Notes under the pieces: model-generated
What the model saw: the letters and a program-made list of their open reading frames with translations, nothing else
The model's database searches: none
What the model was told of the DNA's origin: nothing
From: Oscillospiraceae bacterium
GTDB taxonomy: Bacteria; Bacillota; Clostridia; Oscillospirales; Ruminococcaceae
NCBI GenBank assembly: GCA_017505635.1
Contig: JAFVOU010000008.1
Coordinates: 1 to 45,786, forward strand
Direction of reading: 5' to 3'
DNA length: 45,786 bases
Shown: one piece after another, positions 5,017 through 42,440 of the stretch
Position numbering within the stretch: position 1 is the stretch's first letter
Layout: each line of letters opens with the position of its first letter
Made by a program: the position numbers and the translations under genes

Positions 5017-5101
5017 TGGTGGGAGCGGATGGATTCGAACCATCGAAGTCACTGACAACAGATTTACAGTCTGCCCCCTTTGGCCACTCGGGAACACTCC
5101 C
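5017..5101 (-). tRNA. tRNA-Tyr (anticodon GTA)
   Basis: Read on the minus strand this is an 85-nt class II tRNA with a long variable arm. The acceptor GGGAGTG pairs with CGCTCCC (one G-T pair), the anticodon loop is CTGTAAA with anticodon GTA, the T-arm contains GGTTCGAATCC, the discriminator is A, and CCA is encoded. It is transcribed after tRNA-Thr from a shared promoter, 9 bases apart. Confidence 0.97.
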
Positions 5102-5110
5102 ACAAAAAAA

Positions 5111-5186
5111 TGGAGCTGGTGGACGGACTTGAACCCCCGACCTGCTGATTACAAATCAGCTGCTCTACCGACTGAGCTACACCAGC
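5111..5186 (-). tRNA. tRNA-Thr (anticodon TGT)
   Basis: Minus-strand 76-nt tRNA. The acceptor GCTGGTG pairs with CACCAGC, the D-arm has GCTCAGTCGG, the anticodon stem-loop GCTGA-TTTGTAA-TCAGC gives TGT, the T-arm is GGGGGTTCAAGTCC, the discriminator is T and CCA is encoded. It is the first gene of a two-tRNA unit. Confidence 0.97.
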
Positions 5187-28550: not shown

Positions 28551-28763
28551 GTGTACAATTACATATGCAAAAAAGTTATAGCAGCGGCTTTTCTGCGGTT
28601 TTTTGGGTCAAAAAGCACTTTGCAGGCACACAGATAAGCCCTGTTGCATAGAATATATACGACGGCAAAGCAATTTTGGCGGAGTGCAGTTTCGGGGCAT
28701 CTTCCGCAGCTTTGCATACAGGGCAGCAGCCACACAAAGAATATTTGCGGAGGAAATCTATCT

Positions 28764-29816
28764 ATGACCTATGACCAGAGAAACTGCAAGGATTTTTTAA
28801 ATGCAAACAGCCGCAGATTCGGCATTACCGAACCAAATTTAAGAAGTGAATATCTTGATATATGTGCCCGCAATGTTCGGTGCATCGCATCCCGCCGCAT
28901 CGACGAAAAAATTGTTCTGCCAAGTATGAGCAGTTTTATCAACAGCTGCACAGGTCTTGTGGACTGCGCAGGCGGCATCGATACAGGCTTTGCCTCCCTG
29001 CGCGTAACCCACGCAAAGGAAGAACTTGTGGACTGCGACACAAACTGTCCGGGGGTAAAGGTTGTTATAAAAGGGCAGATTATCGTGCGCACAAAAAACT
29101 GCAACCCATGCTGTTCCCCAAGCTATATGGCAATTCCCGTAGAACTGTGCAGCGAGGTTATACGGGACTTTTATCACACATCCAGCGGCGAAAGGGTTGC
29201 ACAGCTTAAAAACGAACTGCCCAACATCGACGGCAGCTGTATGGTAATCAACCTCAGTTGCCGTGTATGGCGCGAGGTATGCAACGGCTGCAGCAGATAT
29301 GTTGCCCATATCCGCGGCAGTCTGGTGGATAAACTGTGGAAGCTGGAAAACATCTGGGTGGAAGGCATCCGCCCTTATCCGGCACACTCCATAACAGTAA
29401 GCGACAGATTCAGCAAGGATGTATGCACCTGCTGCGAAGACGGCGGCTATATCCGTATGAACGCACAGCAGACAACAGAAGACAGCTGCTGTGAAACACC
29501 TCATCAGACGGCAGACTGCTGCGGCTGCGGCACAAACTGCGGCTGCGGCACAAACTGCGGTTGCGATACAAACTGCGGTTGCGGCACATATGCAGATGAC
29601 TGCGGAACAGACTGCGGCTGTGATACAGACTGTGGCTGTGCAAATAACTGTGACTGCGGCTGTGATACAGACTGTGGCTGTGCAAACAACTGCGGCTGCG
29701 GTACATATGCAAACAACGGCTGTGCAAACAACTGCGGCTGCGGCACATATGCAAACAACGGCTGTGCAAACACCTGCTGTGCCGATACTGCCGACAACGG
29801 CTGCGGCTGCGACTGA
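28764..29816 (+). CDS. Cysteine-rich protein with tandem CGC-(G/D/A)-(T/N)-(N/D) repeats
   Basis: A 350-residue protein of unknown family. The first 240 residues form a soluble domain with about 18 cysteines (NCNPCC, CTCC and others) and no signal peptide. The last 100 residues are a low-complexity tail with about 31 cysteines in units such as CGCGTN, CGCDTD, CGCANN and CGCGTYANNG. Repeats are visible in DNA as AACTGCGGCTGCGGCAC. The start at 28764 is set by GGAGG ten bases upstream; an in-frame ATG at 28644 has no ribosome site. The Cys density suggests a disulfide- or metal-cross-linked structural protein, for example a spore coat component; this is inference. A terminator follows. Confidence 0.8.
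   Translation: MTYDQRNCKDFLNANSRRFGITEPNLRSEYLDICARNVRCIASRRIDEKIVLPSMSSFINSCTGLVDCAGGIDTGFASLRVTHAKEELVDCDTNCPGVKVVIKGQIIVRTKNCNPCCSPSYMAIPVELCSEVIRDFYHTSSGERVAQLKNELPNIDGSCMVINLSCRVWREVCNGCSRYVAHIRGSLVDKLWKLENIWVEGIRPYPAHSITVSDRFSKDVCTCCEDGGYIRMNAQQTTEDSCCETPHQTADCCGCGTNCGCGTNCGCDTNCGCGTYADDCGTDCGCDTDCGCANNCDCGCDTDCGCANNCGCGTYANNGCANNCGCGTYANNGCANTCCADTADNGCGCD
29509..29813 (+). repeat. Cys-repeat coding tandem array
   Basis: About 300 bases of imperfect repeats of 15-18 bases built on GCGGCTGCGGCACA/GACTGTGGCTGTG units, with two longer repeats (CATATGCAAACAACGGCTGTG) near 29703-29720 and 29747-29764. It encodes the Cys-rich tail and may vary in length. Confidence 0.85.
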
Positions 29817-29836
29817 TTTAACATTACGGCAAAACA

Positions 29837-29865
29837 AAAAGGGGGCAATGCCCCCTTTGCTTTTT
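29837..29865. terminator. Bidirectional terminator
   Basis: AAAGGGGGC (29838-29846) pairs with GCCCCCTTT (29850-29858), with A- and T-rich flanks on both sides. It serves the Cys-rich gene and the converging PLC-like gene. Confidence 0.9.
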
Positions 29866-29869
29866 GTAT

Positions 29870-30757
29870 TTAACTGTCAATTGCCACACCGGTAATATAG
29901 CCTTTGTTGCCTATATCCTCCAGCAGGTCATGGATGCTGTAAACACCGCCAAAGTATTTAAGACCAACTGCTATATAATCGGCACTCTGCTGGTTTGCCC
30001 TGCCAAACAGTTCTTCTATGGTGCTGTCGCAGAAAAAACCGGTTTCGTTGTTGCGCCAGATGCTCACGTTTTTCAGCTGGTCGGTGCAGGGCTGCATATG
30101 GCTTGTAATGTATCCTTTGGGATATCGCAAAGCAATCTCTGCAAGGCGGCTGATACTGATTTTCAGCTTGCCCGGCGAATACATAGCCTTTTTGATTTTA
30201 CGGAAATCTGCAAACAGCTTTACATATTCGCTGCGGTCAAATTCAATATCGGTATAGGTTGCCTCCACCGCCTGCTTGAACAGTGTTACAATCTGGTCAA
30301 GATACATCTTTTTGATTTCGGGGGCATAGGCGTTTGGGTGGGCGGCAGGGTCGCCGCATTCGTCAAAGGAAATATGGCTGTCCAGACTGCTTTCAAACCA
30401 GTGGTGCCCGTGTTCCCGGTTGTATGGGTGGCCGTATGCTGTGGTGATATAGTTTATATACGGGTGCATAACACTGTCAAGGGAATAATGACACAGAAAT
30501 CCAAGGCAGTAATCCTTCTGGGCATTGGTCTGTGCAAAGCGGAACAGGTTCTGCAGAAACAGCCCTGTTTTTTCGGTGTGCATACGGTGGGCAAGGTCCT
30601 GCAGGGAGAATTTGCGCCACGGATTGTACATCTGATAAAAATACAGCGGGTCGGGACCGTTGCAGCCAAGAATAAAGGCGCGGTAGTTGCGCGGCTTGTA
30701 CTGTGCAATATTCATTGCACAAACAGCATTGTATTTGTGGGCAAACCCGTCAGGCAT
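29870..30757 (-). CDS. Zinc-dependent phospholipase C-like protein
   Basis: A 295-residue protein that fits the bacterial zinc-dependent phospholipase C/S1-P1 nuclease pattern: MPDGFAHKYN at the start, ILGCNGPDPLYFY near residues 29-41, HYSLDSVMHPYINYI near 90-104 and a HHWFES segment near 118. The His and Asp residues are spaced as tri-zinc ligands. No signal peptide is seen, so it may act inside the cell or be exported by another route. True activity is unknown; many relatives are only annotated as zinc-dependent PLC domain proteins. AGGGGG precedes the ATG at 30757. Confidence 0.82.
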   Translation of the reverse strand: MPDGFAHKYNAVCAMNIAQYKPRNYRAFILGCNGPDPLYFYQMYNPWRKFSLQDLAHRMHTEKTGLFLQNLFRFAQTNAQKDYCLGFLCHYSLDSVMHPYINYITTAYGHPYNREHGHHWFESSLDSHISFDECGDPAAHPNAYAPEIKKMYLDQIVTLFKQAVEATYTDIEFDRSEYVKLFADFRKIKKAMYSPGKLKISISRLAEIALRYPKGYITSHMQPCTDQLKNVSIWRNNETGFFCDSTIEELFGRANQQSADYIAVGLKYFGGVYSIHDLLEDIGNKGYITGVAIDS

Positions 30758-31276: not shown

Positions 31277-34200
31277 TCAGTAATATCTTGTTGCAACAGC
31301 TCTCACAAGGCTCAATCCAAGCCAGCCAAAGCCAAGCAGCAGCACGCTTGTCAGCGGAATGCTCCACAAGGTCTGACTGAGGCTGAACATCACTGCCAGC
31401 ACAGCACCTGCAACAACGCTTACAATCTGCATCAGTGCACAGGTGTTTGCGGCGCGTTTTGCCTTGTCGGCACCAAAGAACCCTGCACTAAGACTGTGCA
31501 GACTGTCAAGGTGAGCCATTGCGCTGTCGGTGTGTTCGCTGTAGGCGGTATAGTTAAGCAGCAGGGCGGTTTCGTTTTTGTTCAGCACCTGAACAGTGTC
31601 CTGCGGCAGGCTGTAAACCAGCTCAAGCAGCTGACTGTCCACATTGAAATCGTTGCTCTGCAGTATAATGCATTTGCCGCTTTCGATAAGATGCAGCAGA
31701 TTTTCCTTTACTGCATGGTCCGGGTGATAGCTTACTACAAACATACCGAACATCTTGCCGTTAACCGACAGATAAATCGGTTTTTTGCCCTCGGACATAT
31801 AGGCGGTTTCCATACTGATTGGCGGCAGATTTATGCCAAATTCTTCCATTATGCTGCGGTTGCCCATAATAACGCGGTTGTTTTCAATCCATGCCACATA
31901 GCCCTGTCCAACCTTGTACTCACAGCTTTCGATAGGATAAAGCATATCCTTTTTGCCGTCGATAACGGTCATAAACACGCTGCGCAGATTGTCCACATAT
32001 TCAATGGCGATGCTTGCGGCATAAAGAATTGCAAGGTCAAGCCGTTCCTTTTCAAAGGTTTTGATGCCGTGAAGCACCACACATCCTTTGGGGAACAGAT
32101 GTTTTGCATCAAAGCTTACATGGGTTGCGTCGCTGAGCTGATAGATGCCCTGCCAGCCGTTTACAAGTGCGCCCACCTTGTTTAGGGCTTTCTGCATCAG
32201 GCTGCCCGGAACACTGCTTATAAGGCTGTGTGCCAGCGGAAGCATAAGCACCCCTGCGCCTGCGGCGGCAAAAATGCCCATGCGCCAGTCGCCTGCGCTT
32301 TTCCAGCCAAGGGCAAAGCATACAACGCTTACAACGGCTGTGAATATTGCAAGAATTTTTGTGCTTTTTTCACTTCTGTGGGTGGAGAACCCGCCGCTGA
32401 TAAAGTTGGAGATATATCCTGTCTTGCGGCTTACCAGTATCTGCGGATTTTTTTCCTCCAGTGTTCTTGCCAGACGTTTAACGTCCTCCATATCCTTGAG
32501 GATATAACCTGCGTTTATGCCTTCCGGCACTTCGGCAAGGCGCAGATTGTGCATAATGGTGTTTGCGCTTATATATTTGCCCAGTGCATTGAAGCCGAAA
32601 GCCAGCACTGTAAATGCGGCAAAGATTGTTGTTGCGGATGTGTCAAGCCCGCTGTTTGCAAAGATGCACACGTTAAGCTGAACAAAGCTCCACACAGCCG
32701 GCACAACCACAAAGCTGTCCTGCGTTGGTGCCTTTGCAAAGCCTGTAATGCCGTTTGCCACAGTTGGCAGAAAACCGATAACAGCAATTGCAAAGAACAC
32801 AAGGTTTACAAGATAGAACATCAACGGCTGTGCCGCAGGGTCAATTGCGGCAGGCAGCGGCAGCGGGCCGTTTGCTGCAAAGTTGAGATACAGCAGAACA
32901 AGCGAAACCGCACCGCTTAAAATCATGCGGATGGCAAGGGTGGATTTAAAGCTTTTAAGCTCGTCGTAAATTTCCTCGGGGTCATCGCTGAACTGCTGGG
33001 TAAGATATTCGTTTTCAAAGTTTTCTTCTTCGCTTTCAAAAACCTCTTCCTCTTCGTCGGCAGGCTGGTCAAAAAAGCTGTCGCCGTCGTCAAGGTCGTG
33101 TTTTTTAAGTATGCCTGCAGCGGCAAACATCTGGGTGATATCCCCTGTTATGCGGCGCATCTTCTGGTCTGCCTCGGATTTTGGCACAACCTCAACAGCC
33201 TTTTCCTCGTCCTCTGCCAGTTCCGGCGGCATATAGACGGTGTTTTCAATTGTGTCTTCAAAGCTTTCCCGCTTGGGCACAAAGGGGCTGTGCTTTTCCT
33301 TGAGCTCAACAGTTGGCTCGTTTGATACAGCTTTTACGGTGGTAACGATAATCGGATTTTCCATCACCGCACCCTCTGCGGCGGCAACAACGGTTGCCTC
33401 GCTTTGTTTTTTTGCTTTTATAGCTTTTAAAATGCTTTCGGCATCCCTTGGTTTTGGTTCTTCGCTTACCTCCGCTTTTGGCGGCGCAGGCTTTCCGTCA
33501 TCATAATAAAGGATAACGCTGTCATTTTTTGCTTCCGGCAGGAACATTTCTCTGTCTGCAGTTTTTACAGAAGAAACATTTTCGTCAGGCTGTTCAGCTG
33601 CTGCAAAAACAGGGGCTTCTGCCTTTGCTGCTGCAGTTTCCGCAGTGTTTTCCTTTTCTCTTTTATCCATAACCTCTGCCGCAAATTTTGCAGCATCAAG
33701 GGGGATTTCGTCGGTTTTATAGCGCATAAACAGCGGTAGGCTGTCTGCCTGCTGTGCTTCTGCCTGCTGTGCTTCTGCCCTTGCTTTTCTTCTGCCGAAC
33801 AAACCGCGTTTTTCTTTTGGGGTTTCCTCTGCAGCTTCAGTCTGGTCAAAGGCAAAGGCGTTTTTTAATTTTTCGCCTGCAGAGCTGTGTTCCTTTGCAG
33901 GTTTTTCCGCTTTTGGGGCAGAAAAGGCACTCTGTTCTGCCTTTTTGTCACCGCCCGAAGTGCCAAGTATAATATCCTTTGCAAGCTCGGCAGTGGTTGG
34001 CTTTGCCACCTTCTGCTGACGCTTGTCCACCTCCTCCTGAGGTATGGAAAGTGTAAGGCTGTCGGTGATATATTTTTTGCGGAAAAATCCGCCTTTTCTG
34101 CGTTTTACAAGTATTTCGCTGGTTGGCTGACGTTCCACCGCCACAGTGGTGGTGAAAAAGTTTACAAATTTATCGTCCACATAGCTTGCTGCGGTAATGT

Positions 34201-34537
34201 TGACGGTGTTTTTGTTTCTTTCGTCAAGGTTTTCGTCAACTTCTTCCACAAGGTCGGCAACTGCAGGGTTTTCTTTAAGGGCGGTTGCCAGCTTTGAAAA
34301 GAACTCACTTTCAATTTCGTGGGTTCCGGCAGTATTTTTTTCTTCCGTGCCAACAGCAGCCACATTGGTCTGTGACTGTGCGTTTTCTGCCTGCTGAGAT
34401 GCCTTTGCGGCGGTTTCCCTTGCGATAATTTCGCCAAGGCGGTCGCCGGTCATTGTGCCGCTGGGGGCAGGCTTTGTATCGGGATAAGCCTTTTTTAAGC
34501 TTTGCAGAATCTTTTCAACATCTTTGTCGCTTGCCAT
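31277..34537 (-). CDS. Degenerate P-type ATPase-like membrane protein with long acidic N-terminal region
   Basis: A 1086-residue protein. Residues 1-530 are low-complexity (Ala/Glu/Lys-rich, acidic stretch near 490-520) and cytoplasmic. From about 533 the layout is that of a P1B-type ATPase: four helices (533-660), two more near 728-748 and 755-780 with the conserved Pro777 (SSVPGSLMQKAL), a cytoplasmic domain, and two C-terminal helices. But the phosphorylation motif DKTGTLT reads DAKHLFP (Asp810), no TGE actuator loop is seen, and the hinge TGDN reads SNDFN near 961-965. An N-domain-like GNRSIMEEFGI lies near 892. It is probably a non-catalytic relative with a sensing or scaffold role. AGGAG before ATG 34537 sets the start. 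RlmB lies upstream on the same strand. Confidence 0.8.
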   Translation of the reverse strand: MASDKDVEKILQSLKKAYPDTKPAPSGTMTGDRLGEIIARETAAKASQQAENAQSQTNVAAVGTEEKNTAGTHEIESEFFSKLATALKENPAVADLVEEVDENLDERNKNTVNITAASYVDDKFVNFFTTTVAVERQPTSEILVKRRKGGFFRKKYITDSLTLSIPQEEVDKRQQKVAKPTTAELAKDIILGTSGGDKKAEQSAFSAPKAEKPAKEHSSAGEKLKNAFAFDQTEAAEETPKEKRGLFGRRKARAEAQQAEAQQADSLPLFMRYKTDEIPLDAAKFAAEVMDKREKENTAETAAAKAEAPVFAAAEQPDENVSSVKTADREMFLPEAKNDSVILYYDDGKPAPPKAEVSEEPKPRDAESILKAIKAKKQSEATVVAAAEGAVMENPIIVTTVKAVSNEPTVELKEKHSPFVPKRESFEDTIENTVYMPPELAEDEEKAVEVVPKSEADQKMRRITGDITQMFAAAGILKKHDLDDGDSFFDQPADEEEEVFESEEENFENEYLTQQFSDDPEEIYDELKSFKSTLAIRMILSGAVSLVLLYLNFAANGPLPLPAAIDPAAQPLMFYLVNLVFFAIAVIGFLPTVANGITGFAKAPTQDSFVVVPAVWSFVQLNVCIFANSGLDTSATTIFAAFTVLAFGFNALGKYISANTIMHNLRLAEVPEGINAGYILKDMEDVKRLARTLEEKNPQILVSRKTGYISNFISGGFSTHRSEKSTKILAIFTAVVSVVCFALGWKSAGDWRMGIFAAAGAGVLMLPLAHSLISSVPGSLMQKALNKVGALVNGWQGIYQLSDATHVSFDAKHLFPKGCVVLHGIKTFEKERLDLAILYAASIAIEYVDNLRSVFMTVIDGKKDMLYPIESCEYKVGQGYVAWIENNRVIMGNRSIMEEFGINLPPISMETAYMSEGKKPIYLSVNGKMFGMFVVSYHPDHAVKENLLHLIESGKCIILQSNDFNVDSQLLELVYSLPQDTVQVLNKNETALLLNYTAYSEHTDSAMAHLDSLHSLSAGFFGADKAKRAANTCALMQIVSVVAGAVLAVMFSLSQTLWSIPLTSVLLLGFGWLGLSLVRAVATRYY

Positions 34538-34657
34538 ATCTGCTCCTAACCGTTTGATTTGTTTTATATAATGGGATATCTGCAGGGTGGTGCACCCGGC
34601 TGGGTGCTCTTTTATCACACAGGATAGTCAATGCCGCTGTGCCTGCAAAACAGCAGC

Positions 34658-35407
34658 CTACAGACTTCTCTGTCTGGAAATTTCGTACATAATAATGCCT
34701 GCGGCTACAGATGCGTTAAAGCTGTCCACGGCGCTGTGTTCGTTGCACATAGGAATGCTTACAATATCGTCGCAAAGGCTTTTTACAAGTGGCTGCACAC
34801 CCTTGCCTTCGCTGCCCACAACCAGTGCGATAGGGCCTGTCAGGTTCTGCTTGTACAGCGGCACAGGGCTGAAATCCGCAGCGTAAACAAAAATATTGTT
34901 TTCTTTAAGTGTGCGCACAGCCTGTGCTATGTTTGCAACCTTTGCAACAGGCATATGCATGCTTGCGCCTGCACTTGTTTTGTGCACAACGCCTGTTACC
35001 GAAACGCCGCCGCGTTTTGGAATGATAATGCCGTGTGCCCCCATAAGATAAGCACTTCTCATAATGGCACCAAGGTTGTGGGGGTCTTCAATGCCGTCGC
35101 AGATAACCACAAAAGGTGCTTCGCCTCTGCTGCGTGCAACCTCGAGAATCTGTGGAATGGAAACATATTCCACAGTGCTTGCATATGCTGCAACACCCTG
35201 ATGGTTTTCGCTCTGGCAAAGGGTTTTGAGTTTAAGGGGATGCACGCGTTTTACAACGGCGCCGCATTCCTTTGCCAGGGCAGTGTAGTAGTTCTGCACA
35301 CTTGGGTTAAGACTTTCGGATATAAAAACTGTGTCCACGCCTGCCTTGCTTTTAAGCAGCTCTGTCACAGGGTTTTTGCCATAGATAACTTCGCTTTTCT
35401 GTTCCAT
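34658..35407 (-). CDS. rlmB: 23S rRNA 2'-O-methyltransferase RlmB-type (SpoU/TrmH family)
   Basis: A 249-residue SPOUT-class methyltransferase that 2'-O-methylates a ribose in 23S rRNA (G2251 in the E. coli RlmB case). An N-terminal substrate-binding domain (VIYGKNPVTELLKS) is followed by the knot: DPHNLGAIMRSAYLMGAHGIIIPKR near 110-134, LVVGSEGKGV near 196-205 and IPMCNEHSAVDSFNASVAAGI near 215-235. All three SpoU motifs are present. TrmH-like tRNA activity cannot be excluded. AAGGAG lies before the ATG at 35407. The P-type-like gene follows after about 120 bases. Confidence 0.93.
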   Translation of the reverse strand: MEQKSEVIYGKNPVTELLKSKAGVDTVFISESLNPSVQNYYTALAKECGAVVKRVHPLKLKTLCQSENHQGVAAYASTVEYVSIPQILEVARSRGEAPFVVICDGIEDPHNLGAIMRSAYLMGAHGIIIPKRGGVSVTGVVHKTSAGASMHMPVAKVANIAQAVRTLKENNIFVYAADFSPVPLYKQNLTGPIALVVGSEGKGVQPLVKSLCDDIVSIPMCNEHSAVDSFNASVAAGIIMYEISRQRSL

Positions 35408-35498: not shown

Positions 35499-35747
35499 TT
35501 ATACAAATAAAATCACCGCAGCTGCAATTATCACAACTGCCGCACCTATGCCCCACAACAGCTTTGGCCTGCGCCACACTGCCGAGGTCTTTTTTATATC
35601 CAGCTCCTTTATCATCTCTGCAGCCTGTGCACGGGTGGTCATCAGTGCAACGTTGGTGGCCTCGGGCTTTAAAAATACCAGAATTTTATCTATGTTGTCG
35701 TTCTGGGTATCGCATATTTCTATAACATTGTGTTTTAAACCTTTCAT
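35499..35747 (-). CDS. Small tail-anchored membrane protein of unknown function
   Basis: An 82-residue protein. The first 60 residues are soluble and mixed alpha/beta (EICDTQNDNIDKILVFLKPEATNVALMTTRAQAAEMIKEL when read in parts), then a basic stretch (WRRPKLLW) and one C-terminal helix (about 65-81). I recognise no family. GGGAGGTG lies about nine bases before the ATG. A hairpin terminator separates it from rlmB, so it is its own unit. Confidence 0.75.
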   Translation of the reverse strand: MKGLKHNVIEICDTQNDNIDKILVFLKPEATNVALMTTRAQAAEMIKELDIKKTSAVWRRPKLLWGIGAAVVIIAAAVILFV

Positions 35748-38529: not shown

Positions 38530-40608
38530 ATGGACTACAAACAGTTAAAAATTAAAAACGTTTTGGTTGCCGGCCATGCTGGCAGCGGTAAAACAAGCCT
38601 TGTTGAAGCTTTGCTTTATATGAACAAAGCAAACGACCGCCTTGGCAGAACAGACGACGGCAACACAGTTACAGACTTTGAAGCAGAAGAAATCAAAAGA
38701 AAATGTTCCCTCTCAAGTGCAGTTGCACCATTCGAATACAGAGATGCAAAATTCAATATGATTGATGTTCCTGGTCTTTTTGACTTCGAACTCGGCATTT
38801 ACGAAGGCATCAAAGCATGTGAATCCGTTCTTCTTACAGTTTCTGCAAAAGACGGCGTTGAAGTTGGCACACAGAAAGCTTACAAACTTGCAGAAAAAAA
38901 CAAAAAAGGTACAATGATCTACGTTTCCAAAGTTGACGTTGAAAACGCAGACTTCTATAAAGTTTTCGAAGAACTCAAAGCTACATTCGGTCCAAAAATC
39001 TGTCCTACATCCGTTCCTGTAGTAACAGACCACGGCACAGTTTACATCGACCTTATCGAATTTAAAGCTTATACATACAAAAACGGCAAAGCTGAAGAAG
39101 TTATGATGCCTGCAACAGGTCACCGTCTTGACGGTCTTGTAACTTCCATGATGGAAGCTGTTGCTGAAACAGACGAAGAACTTTTCGAAAAATACTTCAG
39201 CGGCGAACAGTTTACAAAAGCTGAAATCATCAAAGGTATCAAAGCAGGTTTCAAAGCAGGTTCCATCACACCTGTTATGTGCGGTTCCTCCACATTGATG
39301 GAAGGTCTTGACCTCACACTGGAAACACTCTATGCACTTGTTCCTTCTCCGGAAGATACAGAAGGCACAGAACTTCTTATCGGCGATACAGAAGTTACAC
39401 TTCCATTCAACGAAAACAGCCAGGTTGCAGCACTCGTGTTCAAAACAGTTGCAGACCCATTCGTTGGTAAAATGAGCTTTGTTAAAGTTCTCAGCGGTAA
39501 CCTCAAAAACGACTCCAACGTTGTTAACACAACAACAGGCGAACCAGAAAGAATGGGCAAAGTTCTCTTTGTACGCGGCAAAAAACAGATTGATGCAGAA
39601 TACATCAAAGCAGGTGACATCGGCGCTGTAACAAAACTTGCAAACGCAAAAACAGGCGACATCCTCTGTGACCCACAGAACGAATATAAATATCCAACAT
39701 TCGAATTCCCTACACCAACACTTGAAATGTGCATCAAGCCAAAGAAAAAAGGCGAAGAAGCAAAAATTTCCGCATCTCTCCAGAGAATTATGGAAGAAGA
39801 CTGCACAGTTGGTTACCGTCAGGACGTAGAAACAAGCCAGCAGCTTATCAAAGGTCTTGGCGAACAGCACCTTGACGTTGTTCTTGCAAAAATGAAAGGC
39901 AAATTCGGCGTTGAAGCAGAACTGTCCCAGGCTCGCGTTGCTTACCGCGAAACAATCCGCAAAAAAGTGGAACTTGTTGAAGGTAAACACAAAAAACAGT
40001 CCGGCGGTCATGGTCAGTACGGTCACGTTAAAATCACATTCGAACCACACGACGGCGAAGAACTTATCTTTGCAGAAGAAGTATTTGGCGGTTCCGTTCC
40101 AAAGAACTACTTCCCAGCAGTTGAAAAAGGTCTCCAGAGCGCAATCAAATACGGTGTGCTTGCAGGTTATCCTGTTGTTGGCCTTAAAGCAACATTGATG
40201 GATGGTTCCTACCACGCAGTTGACTCCTCCGAAATGGCATTCAAACTTGCTGCAACACTTGCTTACAAAGCAGGTCTGCCAAAAGCAAGCCCTGTTCTTC
40301 TCGAACCATTCGGCACACTTACAGCTTATGTTCCTTCCGCTAACGCAGGCGACGTAATGGGCGAAGTTAACAAACGCCGCGGCCGCGTTCTCGGTCTTGA
40401 CCCGGCAGAAGACGGCATGCAGGCAGTTCTTGCAGAATGCCCAATGAGCGAAATGTCCAACTTTACAACATACATCCGCTCCCTCACAGCAGGTGCAGGC
40501 TGGTTTACATTTGAATTTGTAAGATACGAACAGCTGCCAGCTCACCTCGAAGAAAAAGTAATCGCAGAAGCTAAAGAATTTATCAACGTTAAATACGACG
40601 AAGAGTAA
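38530..40608 (+). CDS. Elongation factor G-like GTPase (EF-G paralogue)
   Basis: A 692-residue translational GTPase with the EF-G domain order (G, II, III, IV, V). G1 is GHAGSGKT (residues 15-22). G3 reads DVPGLFDF (79-86), so the catalytic His of DTPGH is Leu, and G4 reads SKVD (133-136) in place of NKxD. Domain IV has GHGQYGHVKITFEP near 496-509, and domain V ends with the usual RSLTAGAGWFTFEFVRYEQLP. It is not next to rpsL/rpsG/tuf, so it is a paralogue of the main fusA, of the EF-G-like/EF-G2 kind. Heavy codon bias implies strong expression. It may serve ribosome recycling or stress; not proven. GGGAGG precedes the ATG. Confidence 0.88.
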   Translation: MDYKQLKIKNVLVAGHAGSGKTSLVEALLYMNKANDRLGRTDDGNTVTDFEAEEIKRKCSLSSAVAPFEYRDAKFNMIDVPGLFDFELGIYEGIKACESVLLTVSAKDGVEVGTQKAYKLAEKNKKGTMIYVSKVDVENADFYKVFEELKATFGPKICPTSVPVVTDHGTVYIDLIEFKAYTYKNGKAEEVMMPATGHRLDGLVTSMMEAVAETDEELFEKYFSGEQFTKAEIIKGIKAGFKAGSITPVMCGSSTLMEGLDLTLETLYALVPSPEDTEGTELLIGDTEVTLPFNENSQVAALVFKTVADPFVGKMSFVKVLSGNLKNDSNVVNTTTGEPERMGKVLFVRGKKQIDAEYIKAGDIGAVTKLANAKTGDILCDPQNEYKYPTFEFPTPTLEMCIKPKKKGEEAKISASLQRIMEEDCTVGYRQDVETSQQLIKGLGEQHLDVVLAKMKGKFGVEAELSQARVAYRETIRKKVELVEGKHKKQSGGHGQYGHVKITFEPHDGEELIFAEEVFGGSVPKNYFPAVEKGLQSAIKYGVLAGYPVVGLKATLMDGSYHAVDSSEMAFKLAATLAYKAGLPKASPVLLEPFGTLTAYVPSANAGDVMGEVNKRRGRVLGLDPAEDGMQAVLAECPMSEMSNFTTYIRSLTAGAGWFTFEFVRYEQLPAHLEEKVIAEAKEFINVKYDEE

Positions 40609-40748: not shown

Positions 40749-42440
40749 TTAGTCAGCCTTTTTCTTTTTTATCAGAACAGCAGCAACAATGATTATTACA
40801 AGCGCAATTATGCCGACAGGCAGTACAGGTATGCCGCTGCCGTTGTCTGCCTGGGTCTGCTGCGGTGCAGGTGTCGGTGCAGCAGTAGGTGCAGGTGTCG
40901 GTGCTGCGGTCGGTGCAGGTGTTGGCTCTGGTGTAGGTTCTGGGGTTGGCTGGGCGGTCGGCTGCGGTGTTGCCACAATTTCCGGTGCACGGCTGATTAC
41001 CAGAGTGTAGAACCAGTTGGTTTTGCCGTCTTCCGCAGTTGTTTTTACAACTATTGTGTTGTCACCTACAGCAAGGGGATGTTTCCACAGGTTGTCAGCC
41101 CATGCAGCCCAGTGGCTCATTGTGCCGCCAAGTGTTACGGAATCCTTTTCAAAAGGCACGTTTATACGATAGCTGAACACAAGACGGTCAAAGCCTTCGA
41201 GATTTTTGCCGTCAACAGTTATCATATCCATACCGCCGTCAACACTCTTTGCAGCAGGGATATATTCGGGTGCAATCTCTGCCTCACCCTCTCCACCTTC
41301 CTCACCCTGACCGCCGTAAGGTATGCAGGAAACTGTTATTTCTGCTTTTCTGTCAGGATATTCAAACCTGAAAAACTGCGAGCCGTCACCGATTGCATAG
41401 CTGTCTGCGTTTTCCGGAATGCCTTCAATTTTGTCCAGCATATAGCCGTCTTTGGGTGATAAACCGAGGGTAATAGGGCTTTTGTCATTATCGGCATCAT
41501 AAATCATATCCAGGCTGACTTCGCAGTTTTCGTCAGCTTTAAGGGACAGGTTTTTCATTTCGATGCTGTTTGAGGATAAATATGCTTCTTTCAGCAAAGG
41601 ATTGTTGGTGAGGTCAATGTGGGAGATTTTTGCGCCTGATGCAGCAAAACAGCTAAGCTCTGCATTGGCAGAAAGGTCAATGCTTTCGATATCTGTGCTG
41701 GTTAAAGACAGCGTTTCCAGCTTTGGATTGCCCGAAACATCAAGCTGTTTTATCCTGCTGAAATCAATATCCAGCGTTGTAAGTTCCGGCAGACATGATA
41801 CATCTATGGCTTCAAGTGGACAGTTGTAAAAGTAAGCGGCTTCAAGTTTGCTGTTGGCGGACAAATCTATCGAGGTCAGTCCTGTATTTGAAATGATGAG
41901 GTATTTAAGCTCAGTGTTGGCAGAAAGGTCAAGTTCTGTTATGGCTGTGTTGCCTGCATCAATCATTTCAAGGGCAGGACAGCCGCTGACATCAAGAGAA
42001 GACAAAGCTGTTCCGGAAACGGCTATAGTTTTGACAGGGCTGTTTTCCGGCAGAATCAAAGCATCAAGTTCCGGGTTTGAGTGGCAGTAGAGTGTTTTCA
42101 GATGTTCAAAGGCCGAAAGGTCCATTGTCCCTCTGAAATCTGCGTCATACATAGTAACACCTGAAATATGAAACAATCCGTCAGACTTTGGATTCCAGAC
42201 CAATTCTATAAACGTGGTTCCATCCGGGGCAGCATATTGCCATATATCGGGAATGGTTGTTCTGTCAATGCTGTTTCGGATAGTTTCGCTGCCTATTGAT
42301 TCGATAAGCTGGTTTACAGCAGCCACATCGCTGTCATAATATCCGTCGCCGTTGGCATCCGGTTCTGCGGCAAAAGCCGTAAAGGCGCACAGGCATATGG
42401 AAAGCAGCATACAAAGCAGAATGCATAAACGTTTTTTCAT
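40749..42440 (-). CDS. Membrane-anchored leucine-rich repeat surface protein
   Basis: A 563-residue surface protein. A signal peptide (about 1-24) is followed by a dockerin-like calcium loop (DANGDGYYDSDVAAVNQL, about 28-45), internalin-like LRRs of about 21 residues (about 110-310; units such as LSSLDVSGCPALEMI), a beta domain, a cadherin-like module near 400-480, a Pro/Thr/Glu/Ala stalk (PTPEPTPAP), and one C-terminal helix with a basic KKKK tail. There is no LPXTG. Only one calcium loop is present, so a true dockerin (two loops) is not claimed. It likely displays the LRR domain outside the wall. AAGGAGG precedes the ATG at 42440. Confidence 0.88.
   Translation of the reverse strand: MKKRLCILLCMLLSICLCAFTAFAAEPDANGDGYYDSDVAAVNQLIESIGSETIRNSIDRTTIPDIWQYAAPDGTTFIELVWNPKSDGLFHISGVTMYDADFRGTMDLSAFEHLKTLYCHSNPELDALILPENSPVKTIAVSGTALSSLDVSGCPALEMIDAGNTAITELDLSANTELKYLIISNTGLTSIDLSANSKLEAAYFYNCPLEAIDVSCLPELTTLDIDFSRIKQLDVSGNPKLETLSLTSTDIESIDLSANAELSCFAASGAKISHIDLTNNPLLKEAYLSSNSIEMKNLSLKADENCEVSLDMIYDADNDKSPITLGLSPKDGYMLDKIEGIPENADSYAIGDGSQFFRFEYPDRKAEITVSCIPYGGQGEEGGEGEAEIAPEYIPAAKSVDGGMDMITVDGKNLEGFDRLVFSYRINVPFEKDSVTLGGTMSHWAAWADNLWKHPLAVGDNTIVVKTTAEDGKTNWFYTLVISRAPEIVATPQPTAQPTPEPTPEPTPAPTAAPTPAPTAAPTPAPQQTQADNGSGIPVLPVGIIALVIIIVAAVLIKKKKAD

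Follow-up and report, generated by a model that had tools for sequence, protein, structure and literature searches.

A P-type ATPase relative lacking the catalytic motifs, encoded next to rlmB, as a probable membrane-anchored scaffold or sensor

The window analysed in this study is a 45,786-nucleotide stretch of DNA from an Oscillospiraceae bacterium (contig JAFVOU010000008.1), and the gene in question lies on its minus strand, downstream of rlmB, the gene for the 23S rRNA (guanosine-2251) methyltransferase. An earlier note on this DNA, made from the sequence alone, had described the product as a catalytically dead P-type ATPase with a long acidic cytoplasmic extension, and its catalytic inactivity is now supported by sequence, by the predicted fold and by the homologues. 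The features of the locus, including those of an AlphaFold2 (AF2) model of the protein, are as follows.

31277..34537, minus strand: gene for the pseudo-P-type-ATPase, an open reading frame of 1086 amino acids plus stop, from ATG
32993..34537, minus strand: N-terminal acidic extension, residues 1-515 (102 Asp plus Glu, 71 Lys plus Arg), conserved little outside short blocks
34490..34525, minus strand: short motif KDVEKILQSLKK, residues 5-16, partly conserved among 121 aligned rows
34049..34183, minus strand: partly conserved tail block YVDDKFVNFF...KKYITDSLTL, residues 119-163, from alignments of 121 and 26 rows
33407..33445, minus strand: second motif copy DAESILKAIKAKK, residues 365-377, a repeat of the first motif
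32537..32992, minus strand: helices 1-4 of the membrane core, residues 516-667, from the AF2 model
32375..32536, minus strand: A-domain remnant without TGE, residues 668-721, from the AF2 model, the alignment and a length comparison
32180..32374, minus strand: helices 5-6 (equivalents of M3-M4), residues 722-786, from the AF2 model and the alignment
31502..32179, minus strand: P/N head without GDGxND, residues 787-1012, keeping G879 (of GxG), G892 (of GN) and D963 (of TGD)
32090..32110, minus strand: position of DKTGT, here D810-A-K-H-L-F-P816, from the alignment with P1B pumps
31292..31501, minus strand: helices 7-8 (equivalents of M5-M6), residues 1013-1082, from the AF2 model
34658..35407, minus strand: rlmB, upstream of the pseudo-ATPase gene (TIGR00186, 219.4 bits against a cut-off of 160.15)

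The ATG at 34537 is the start position shared with close homologues and is immediately preceded by AGGAG; in the list of open reading frames (ORFs), a GTG at 34618 is an alternative start that would add 27 amino acids. No model of Pfam or NCBIfam reached its cut-off on the window protein. The sole Pfam match was MerC (expectation value, E, 0.013), NCBIfam gave two sub-threshold matches, the better one being a zinc/cadmium ATPase model, and for TIGR01525 (P1B) the window core scored 31.4 bits against a cut-off of 346.25. Among the listed matches, most of which carry no source name, the named homologues are mostly 'hypothetical protein', the exceptions being P0238 ('cation transport ATPase') and P0124 ('Cu+-exporting ATPase'). 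Among the open-licence papers listed in literature searches, none was recognised as dealing with a prokaryotic P-type pseudoenzyme or with this rlmB neighbour, which is weak evidence of absence.

The C-terminal 571 amino acids are homologous to P1B copper pumps, as found with a profile against PDB sequences (E 1.4e-14). A phmmer search of the same sequences gave a single match, LpCopA (3rfu; E 5e-7), over residues 731-968. LpCopA is also the best solved match of the AF2 model, of which the core is predicted with a predicted local distance difference test score (pLDDT) of 90. The P and N domains and an eight-helix core are predicted both in the window protein and in a second family member, and the helices stand 4+2+2 around the P/N head, as had been read from the sequence. 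Of the A/P/N arrangement expected earlier, the P and N domains are present in the model, but the A region is shortened, with a median of 75 residues in the family against 140 in P1B pumps, and not merely mutated. Chance resemblance to P1B pumps was rejected on the two E-values together with the fold match.

The fate of the catalytic motifs was followed in an alignment of 117 family cores with 30 canonical P1B pumps (one encoded in the window's own genome), the rows being sorted into family and canonical by motif content. DKTGT is found in 0/117 family rows, and TGE and GDGxND are gaps in 117/117, whereas all three motifs are kept by 30/30 of the P1B pumps. In the window protein D810-P816 occupies the DKTGT slot, TGDN is replaced by SNDFN with D963 retained, and GNRSIMEEFGI aligns with the GN stretch of P1B pumps, so that the readings of DKTGTLT as DAKHLFP, of a missing TGE, of SNDFN and of an N-domain-like segment all proved correct. 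The CPC position reads L-P-L, both Cys being replaced by Leu, and P767 is the aligned CPC proline; Pro777, which had been taken for the transport-helix proline, is indeed conserved (74%), but it is not the CPC-Pro equivalent. Across the family the CPC Pro is present in 90/117 and the first Cys in 7/117, while the family's listed residues include neither the second Cys nor the His of HP (30/30 controls). An Asp stands at the phosphorylation position in 36/117 members, D810 of the window included, and DxDxF occupies the DKTGT site in 39/117, being absent from the window protein and from 78/117. The TGD Asp is found in 104/117, with a preceding Thr or Ser in 90/117, and the stretch after TGD has a median of 50 residues against 82 in P1B pumps. 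The P1B pumps have 211 columns with at least 90% conservation, and in 6 of these the family shows the same residue with a frequency of 72% or more.

The same losses were observed in wider samples. Neither DKTGT nor GDGxND occurs in any of the 268 listed family proteins from three protein searches, namely one with residues 530-1086 (223 proteins at E<=1e-3, best 120 examined), one with profile A2 of 31 core sequences (312 proteins at E<=0.01, best 120 examined) and one with profile A5, led by deep members (44 proteins at E<=1e-20, being 34 family members and 10 canonical pumps, of which 10/10 carry both motifs). In the fetched loci, which covered 106 of the 289 matching genomes described below, 167 family ORFs (some being the same gene twice) have neither motif, 31 ORFs have both, and none has only one. 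No homologue that keeps DKTGT was found; such a homologue would have spoken against the original proposal. Judged from these alignments, the family has lost the motifs for phosphorylation, dephosphorylation, Mg2+ binding and metal binding alike; by its defining motifs this order-wide family of P-type pseudoenzymes is not a P1B ATPase, and by descent it is a P1B relative.

The order of the sampled genomes, judged from the named matches, is presumably the Oscillospirales of GTDB, and named members of the group include Gemmiger, Faecalibacterium and Fournierella. With the deep profile A4, 289/297 sampled genomes of the order (143/146 genera) match at E<=1e-45, and the matches are single-copy per genome except in G222, which has two pieces split between two contigs. 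G275 and G295 carry a diverged copy adjoining rlmB that falls below this threshold (174.7 and 144.8 bits), and in G023 the contig ends about 420 nt past rlmB. Five genomes without a match (G053, G076, G088, G111 and G209, of which G053 and G111 belong to one genus) are also without rlmB over its cut-off, the rlmB status of G076 and G209 being taken from weak E-values and the tally of 291/297; these double absences fit a shared loss and a shared assembly gap alike. In G097 the gene is cut at a contig end and there is no rlmB match. At the same threshold, which a very diverged outside member could escape as two members inside the order did, no match was found in 278 genomes of the class or in 193 further genomes of the phylum (0/471). 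The best matches outside the order (1.9e-39 in the class and 1.6e-37 in the phylum, against 4.9e-59 for the weakest family match in the genome searches) lie over the P/N region, and all 29 that were fetched are intact P1B pumps. Since full-ORF scores overlap (weakest family ORF 197.9 bits; 26 listed intact P1B ORFs below 200 and five above), family and P1B pumps were told apart by motif content and position.

In a quick tree of 59 of the 117 family rows and the 30 P1B pumps, made without a mixture model and with long branches flagged by the program, the family and the P1B pumps are separated by a branch with a support of 100 in the Shimodaira-Hasegawa-like approximate likelihood ratio test. 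Among seven close relatives (21 pairs; synonymous rate dS partly saturated) the pairwise ratio of non-synonymous to synonymous rates (dN/dS) is about 0.07-0.25 for the core and about 0.19-0.34 for the tail; by this measure purifying selection acts on the core within this close group.

RlmB is an unrelated soluble methyltransferase, and nothing unusual was seen in it (TIGR00186) besides its fixed pseudo-ATPase neighbour. The linkage was examined in 92 loci, namely the window plus 51 loci from titled records and 40 from further genomes, and rlmB lies upstream on the same strand in 87/92; in the remaining 5/92 the start of the gene is no more than 176 nt from a contig edge, so that the upstream DNA is absent. 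The observation that the gene follows rlmB thus extends to related genomes. The gap from rlmB to the called start is -202 to 194 nt in 86 loci and 640 nt in L048; in the 40 loci from further genomes, rlmB is upstream in 40/40 with a median gap of 25 nt, and the linkage was also seen at L203, L204 and L207. No minus-strand terminator-like site was found in the spacer between the two genes of the window.

The extension, earlier given as 530 residues of low complexity, is acidic as stated, but it is about 515 residues long and carries conserved blocks. Tail length ranges over 0-689 amino acids in 87 loci, the net charge of the tail is negative in 79/87, and of 137 ORFs with a complete 5' end 6 are shorter than 650 amino acids. 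A broad form of the short motif occurs in the first 110 residues of 69/131 tailed ORFs (shuffled mean 1.0, maximum 5) and a narrower pattern in 43/131 (shuffled mean 0.54), both patterns having been composed after inspection of the sequences and the ORFs not being independent. As for a general docking signal, the strict DNA pattern F-S/T-L-D/E-D/E-I-L-A-E was found in 2/78 genomes, both times inside this gene, but most forms of the motif do not fit this pattern, which therefore says little on the motif's occurrence elsewhere. A variable tail, often with a short N-terminal motif, looks like docking equipment as far as the sequences go.

Among known systems, the P1B-1 copper-exporting ATPases (LpCopA, 3rfu/4bbj, and ATP7B) are the best match in sequence and fold. 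Common to both are the 4+2+2 layout (predicted here), the P/N head, the second Gly of GxG, GN, the CPC Pro and the TGD Asp; the family differs in lacking DKTGT, TGE, GDGxND and the CPC Cys pair, in its short A region, and in the long acidic tail of most members. The closest known analogue is ERMA/TMEM94, a eukaryotic Mg2+ transporter of the endoplasmic reticulum. According to its description (PMC13322241), it has P-type architecture, lacks TGES and has GDGVND replaced, and in every structure available the nucleotide pocket cannot be reached by Mg-ATP. It differs from the present family in having 10 helices, against 8 predicted here in the P1B layout, and in keeping the Asp of DKQGI that is needed for its reported Mg2+ uptake, whereas the Asp at this position is not conserved here.

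Taken together, we consider the protein an ancient P-type pseudoenzyme and a relative of P1B copper-type pumps, likely to serve as a membrane-anchored, non-pumping scaffold or sensor, a reading to which we assign a probability of roughly 0.6. A pump would have been recruited once, before the order diversified; its eight-helix core would anchor the P/N head at the membrane, and this head, with the N-domain glycines kept, may still bind a ligand, for example a nucleotide. The tail, acidic and bearing the short N-terminal motif, would dock a putative cytosolic partner, and co-transcription with rlmB would set the level of the pseudo-ATPase alongside ribosome maturation. From these features we infer the absence of pumping, the scaffold or sensor role, the tail motif as a dock and the P/N head as a possible ligand site.

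Several observations weigh against this reading. The word scaffold derives from losses plus a short motif in the sequences, and few columns, 16 in all, are conserved at 72% or more across the family. One family group, represented by five ORFs of 550-554 amino acids, has no tail, and the extension cannot therefore be the core of the function; the broad motif is unmatched in 62/131 tailed ORFs and appears also in 7/95 ORFs at residues 121-230, and the motif patterns were, as noted, drawn up after the fact. The N-terminal part of RlmB and the tail show no correlation in length or charge over 87 pairs (Spearman -0.15, p 0.16; -0.02, p 0.87), which gives no support for direct contact between RlmB and the tail, and the rlmB linkage may reflect shared transcription only. 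Since the Asp remains in 36/117 members, including the window protein, and the TGD Asp in 104/117, some residual chemistry may persist.

The main rival is residual transport, by a non-canonical mechanism like that of ERMA/TMEM94 or along a passive, channel-like path, because the similarly degenerate ERMA is reported to take up Mg2+ in dependence on Asp427 (PMC13322241). The predicted P1B helix layout and the widely retained CPC Pro agree with such a function, but the Asp reportedly needed by ERMA is not conserved in this family (36/117), the CPC Cys pair is nearly gone, the segment following TGD is shorter by 32 residues, and the 16 family-conserved columns include no polar set in the helices, and we regard transport as unlikely. 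Quite improbable in our view is a regulatory or dominant-negative partnership, via the membrane core, with canonical P1B pumps of the same cell. Such a pump was matched in 98/98 sampled genomes of the order (96 over cut-off), which would leave hardly any cell without a partner, but also in 14/14 control genomes (13 over cut-off), so that the co-occurrence is uninformative; moreover, the fixed neighbour is rlmB, and one locus, L100, has a canonical P1B ORF at a distance of about 4 kb.

That the P domain acts as a different enzyme of the HAD type, with D-x-D in place of DKTGT in some members, could draw on DxDxF in a third of the rows and on the retained TGD Asp with its Thr or Ser. We hold this to be very improbable, as the Mg2+-holding acidic loop (GDGxND) is missing throughout and DxDxF is absent from most members; the window protein itself lacks the DxD motif I and acidic motif IV combination of HAD phosphatases. 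Decay of a pseudogene, a frameshift or an assembly artefact would likewise yield loss of all catalytic motifs, and L066, the family copy in G020, has one in-frame TGA, explicable as a recoded codon, as an error or as decay. Against this stand the near-universal match in the order, listed matches that are stop-free apart from L066, the low core dN/dS and the identical losses in all members examined, and this explanation was rejected as having a negligible probability; the earlier concern about a recent pseudogene or local error was not borne out, related genomes sharing the same losses.

To return to the scaffold or sensor reading, a bolder version, which we find decidedly doubtful, is that a copper pump became an essential or near-essential pseudo-pump, made together with RlmB, which senses nucleotide or membrane state via its P/N head and links the membrane to ribosome maturation. 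The phospho-Asp site is the signature of P-type ATPases (PMC10654040), and its loss together with the other motifs, yet with near-universal retention of the gene, suggests a second use of the P-type fold in bacteria. If the reading is true, this nearly universal, nearly always single-copy and unnamed protein would stand for a family of P-type pseudoenzymes in prokaryotes and be an order-defining core protein in the group that includes Gemmiger, Faecalibacterium and Fournierella.

Other genes of the window were recorded in passing. Upstream of rlmB, at 35499-35747 (minus strand), lies the gene for a predicted tail-anchored small protein of 82 amino acids, whose NIDKIL resembles the pseudo-ATPase motif; its cluster occurs in 23/92 loci and it has no Pfam or NCBIfam match. 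An EF-G-like protein (NF009381, 805.8 bits) is encoded at 38530-40608 (plus strand), and its cluster is found near the pseudo-ATPase in 28/92 loci, mostly downstream. At 28644-29837 there is a Cys-rich repeat ORF with CGCGTNCGC repeats (plus frame 28644-29816) and a long ORF on the opposite, minus strand that has no Pfam family. A Zn-dependent phospholipase C family protein (PF00882, 32.7 bits against a cut-off of 26.8) is encoded at 29870-30757 (minus strand), a protein with leucine-rich repeats and a cadherin-like domain at 40749-42440 (minus strand), and tRNA-Tyr and tRNA-Thr genes lie at 5017-5186 (minus strand).
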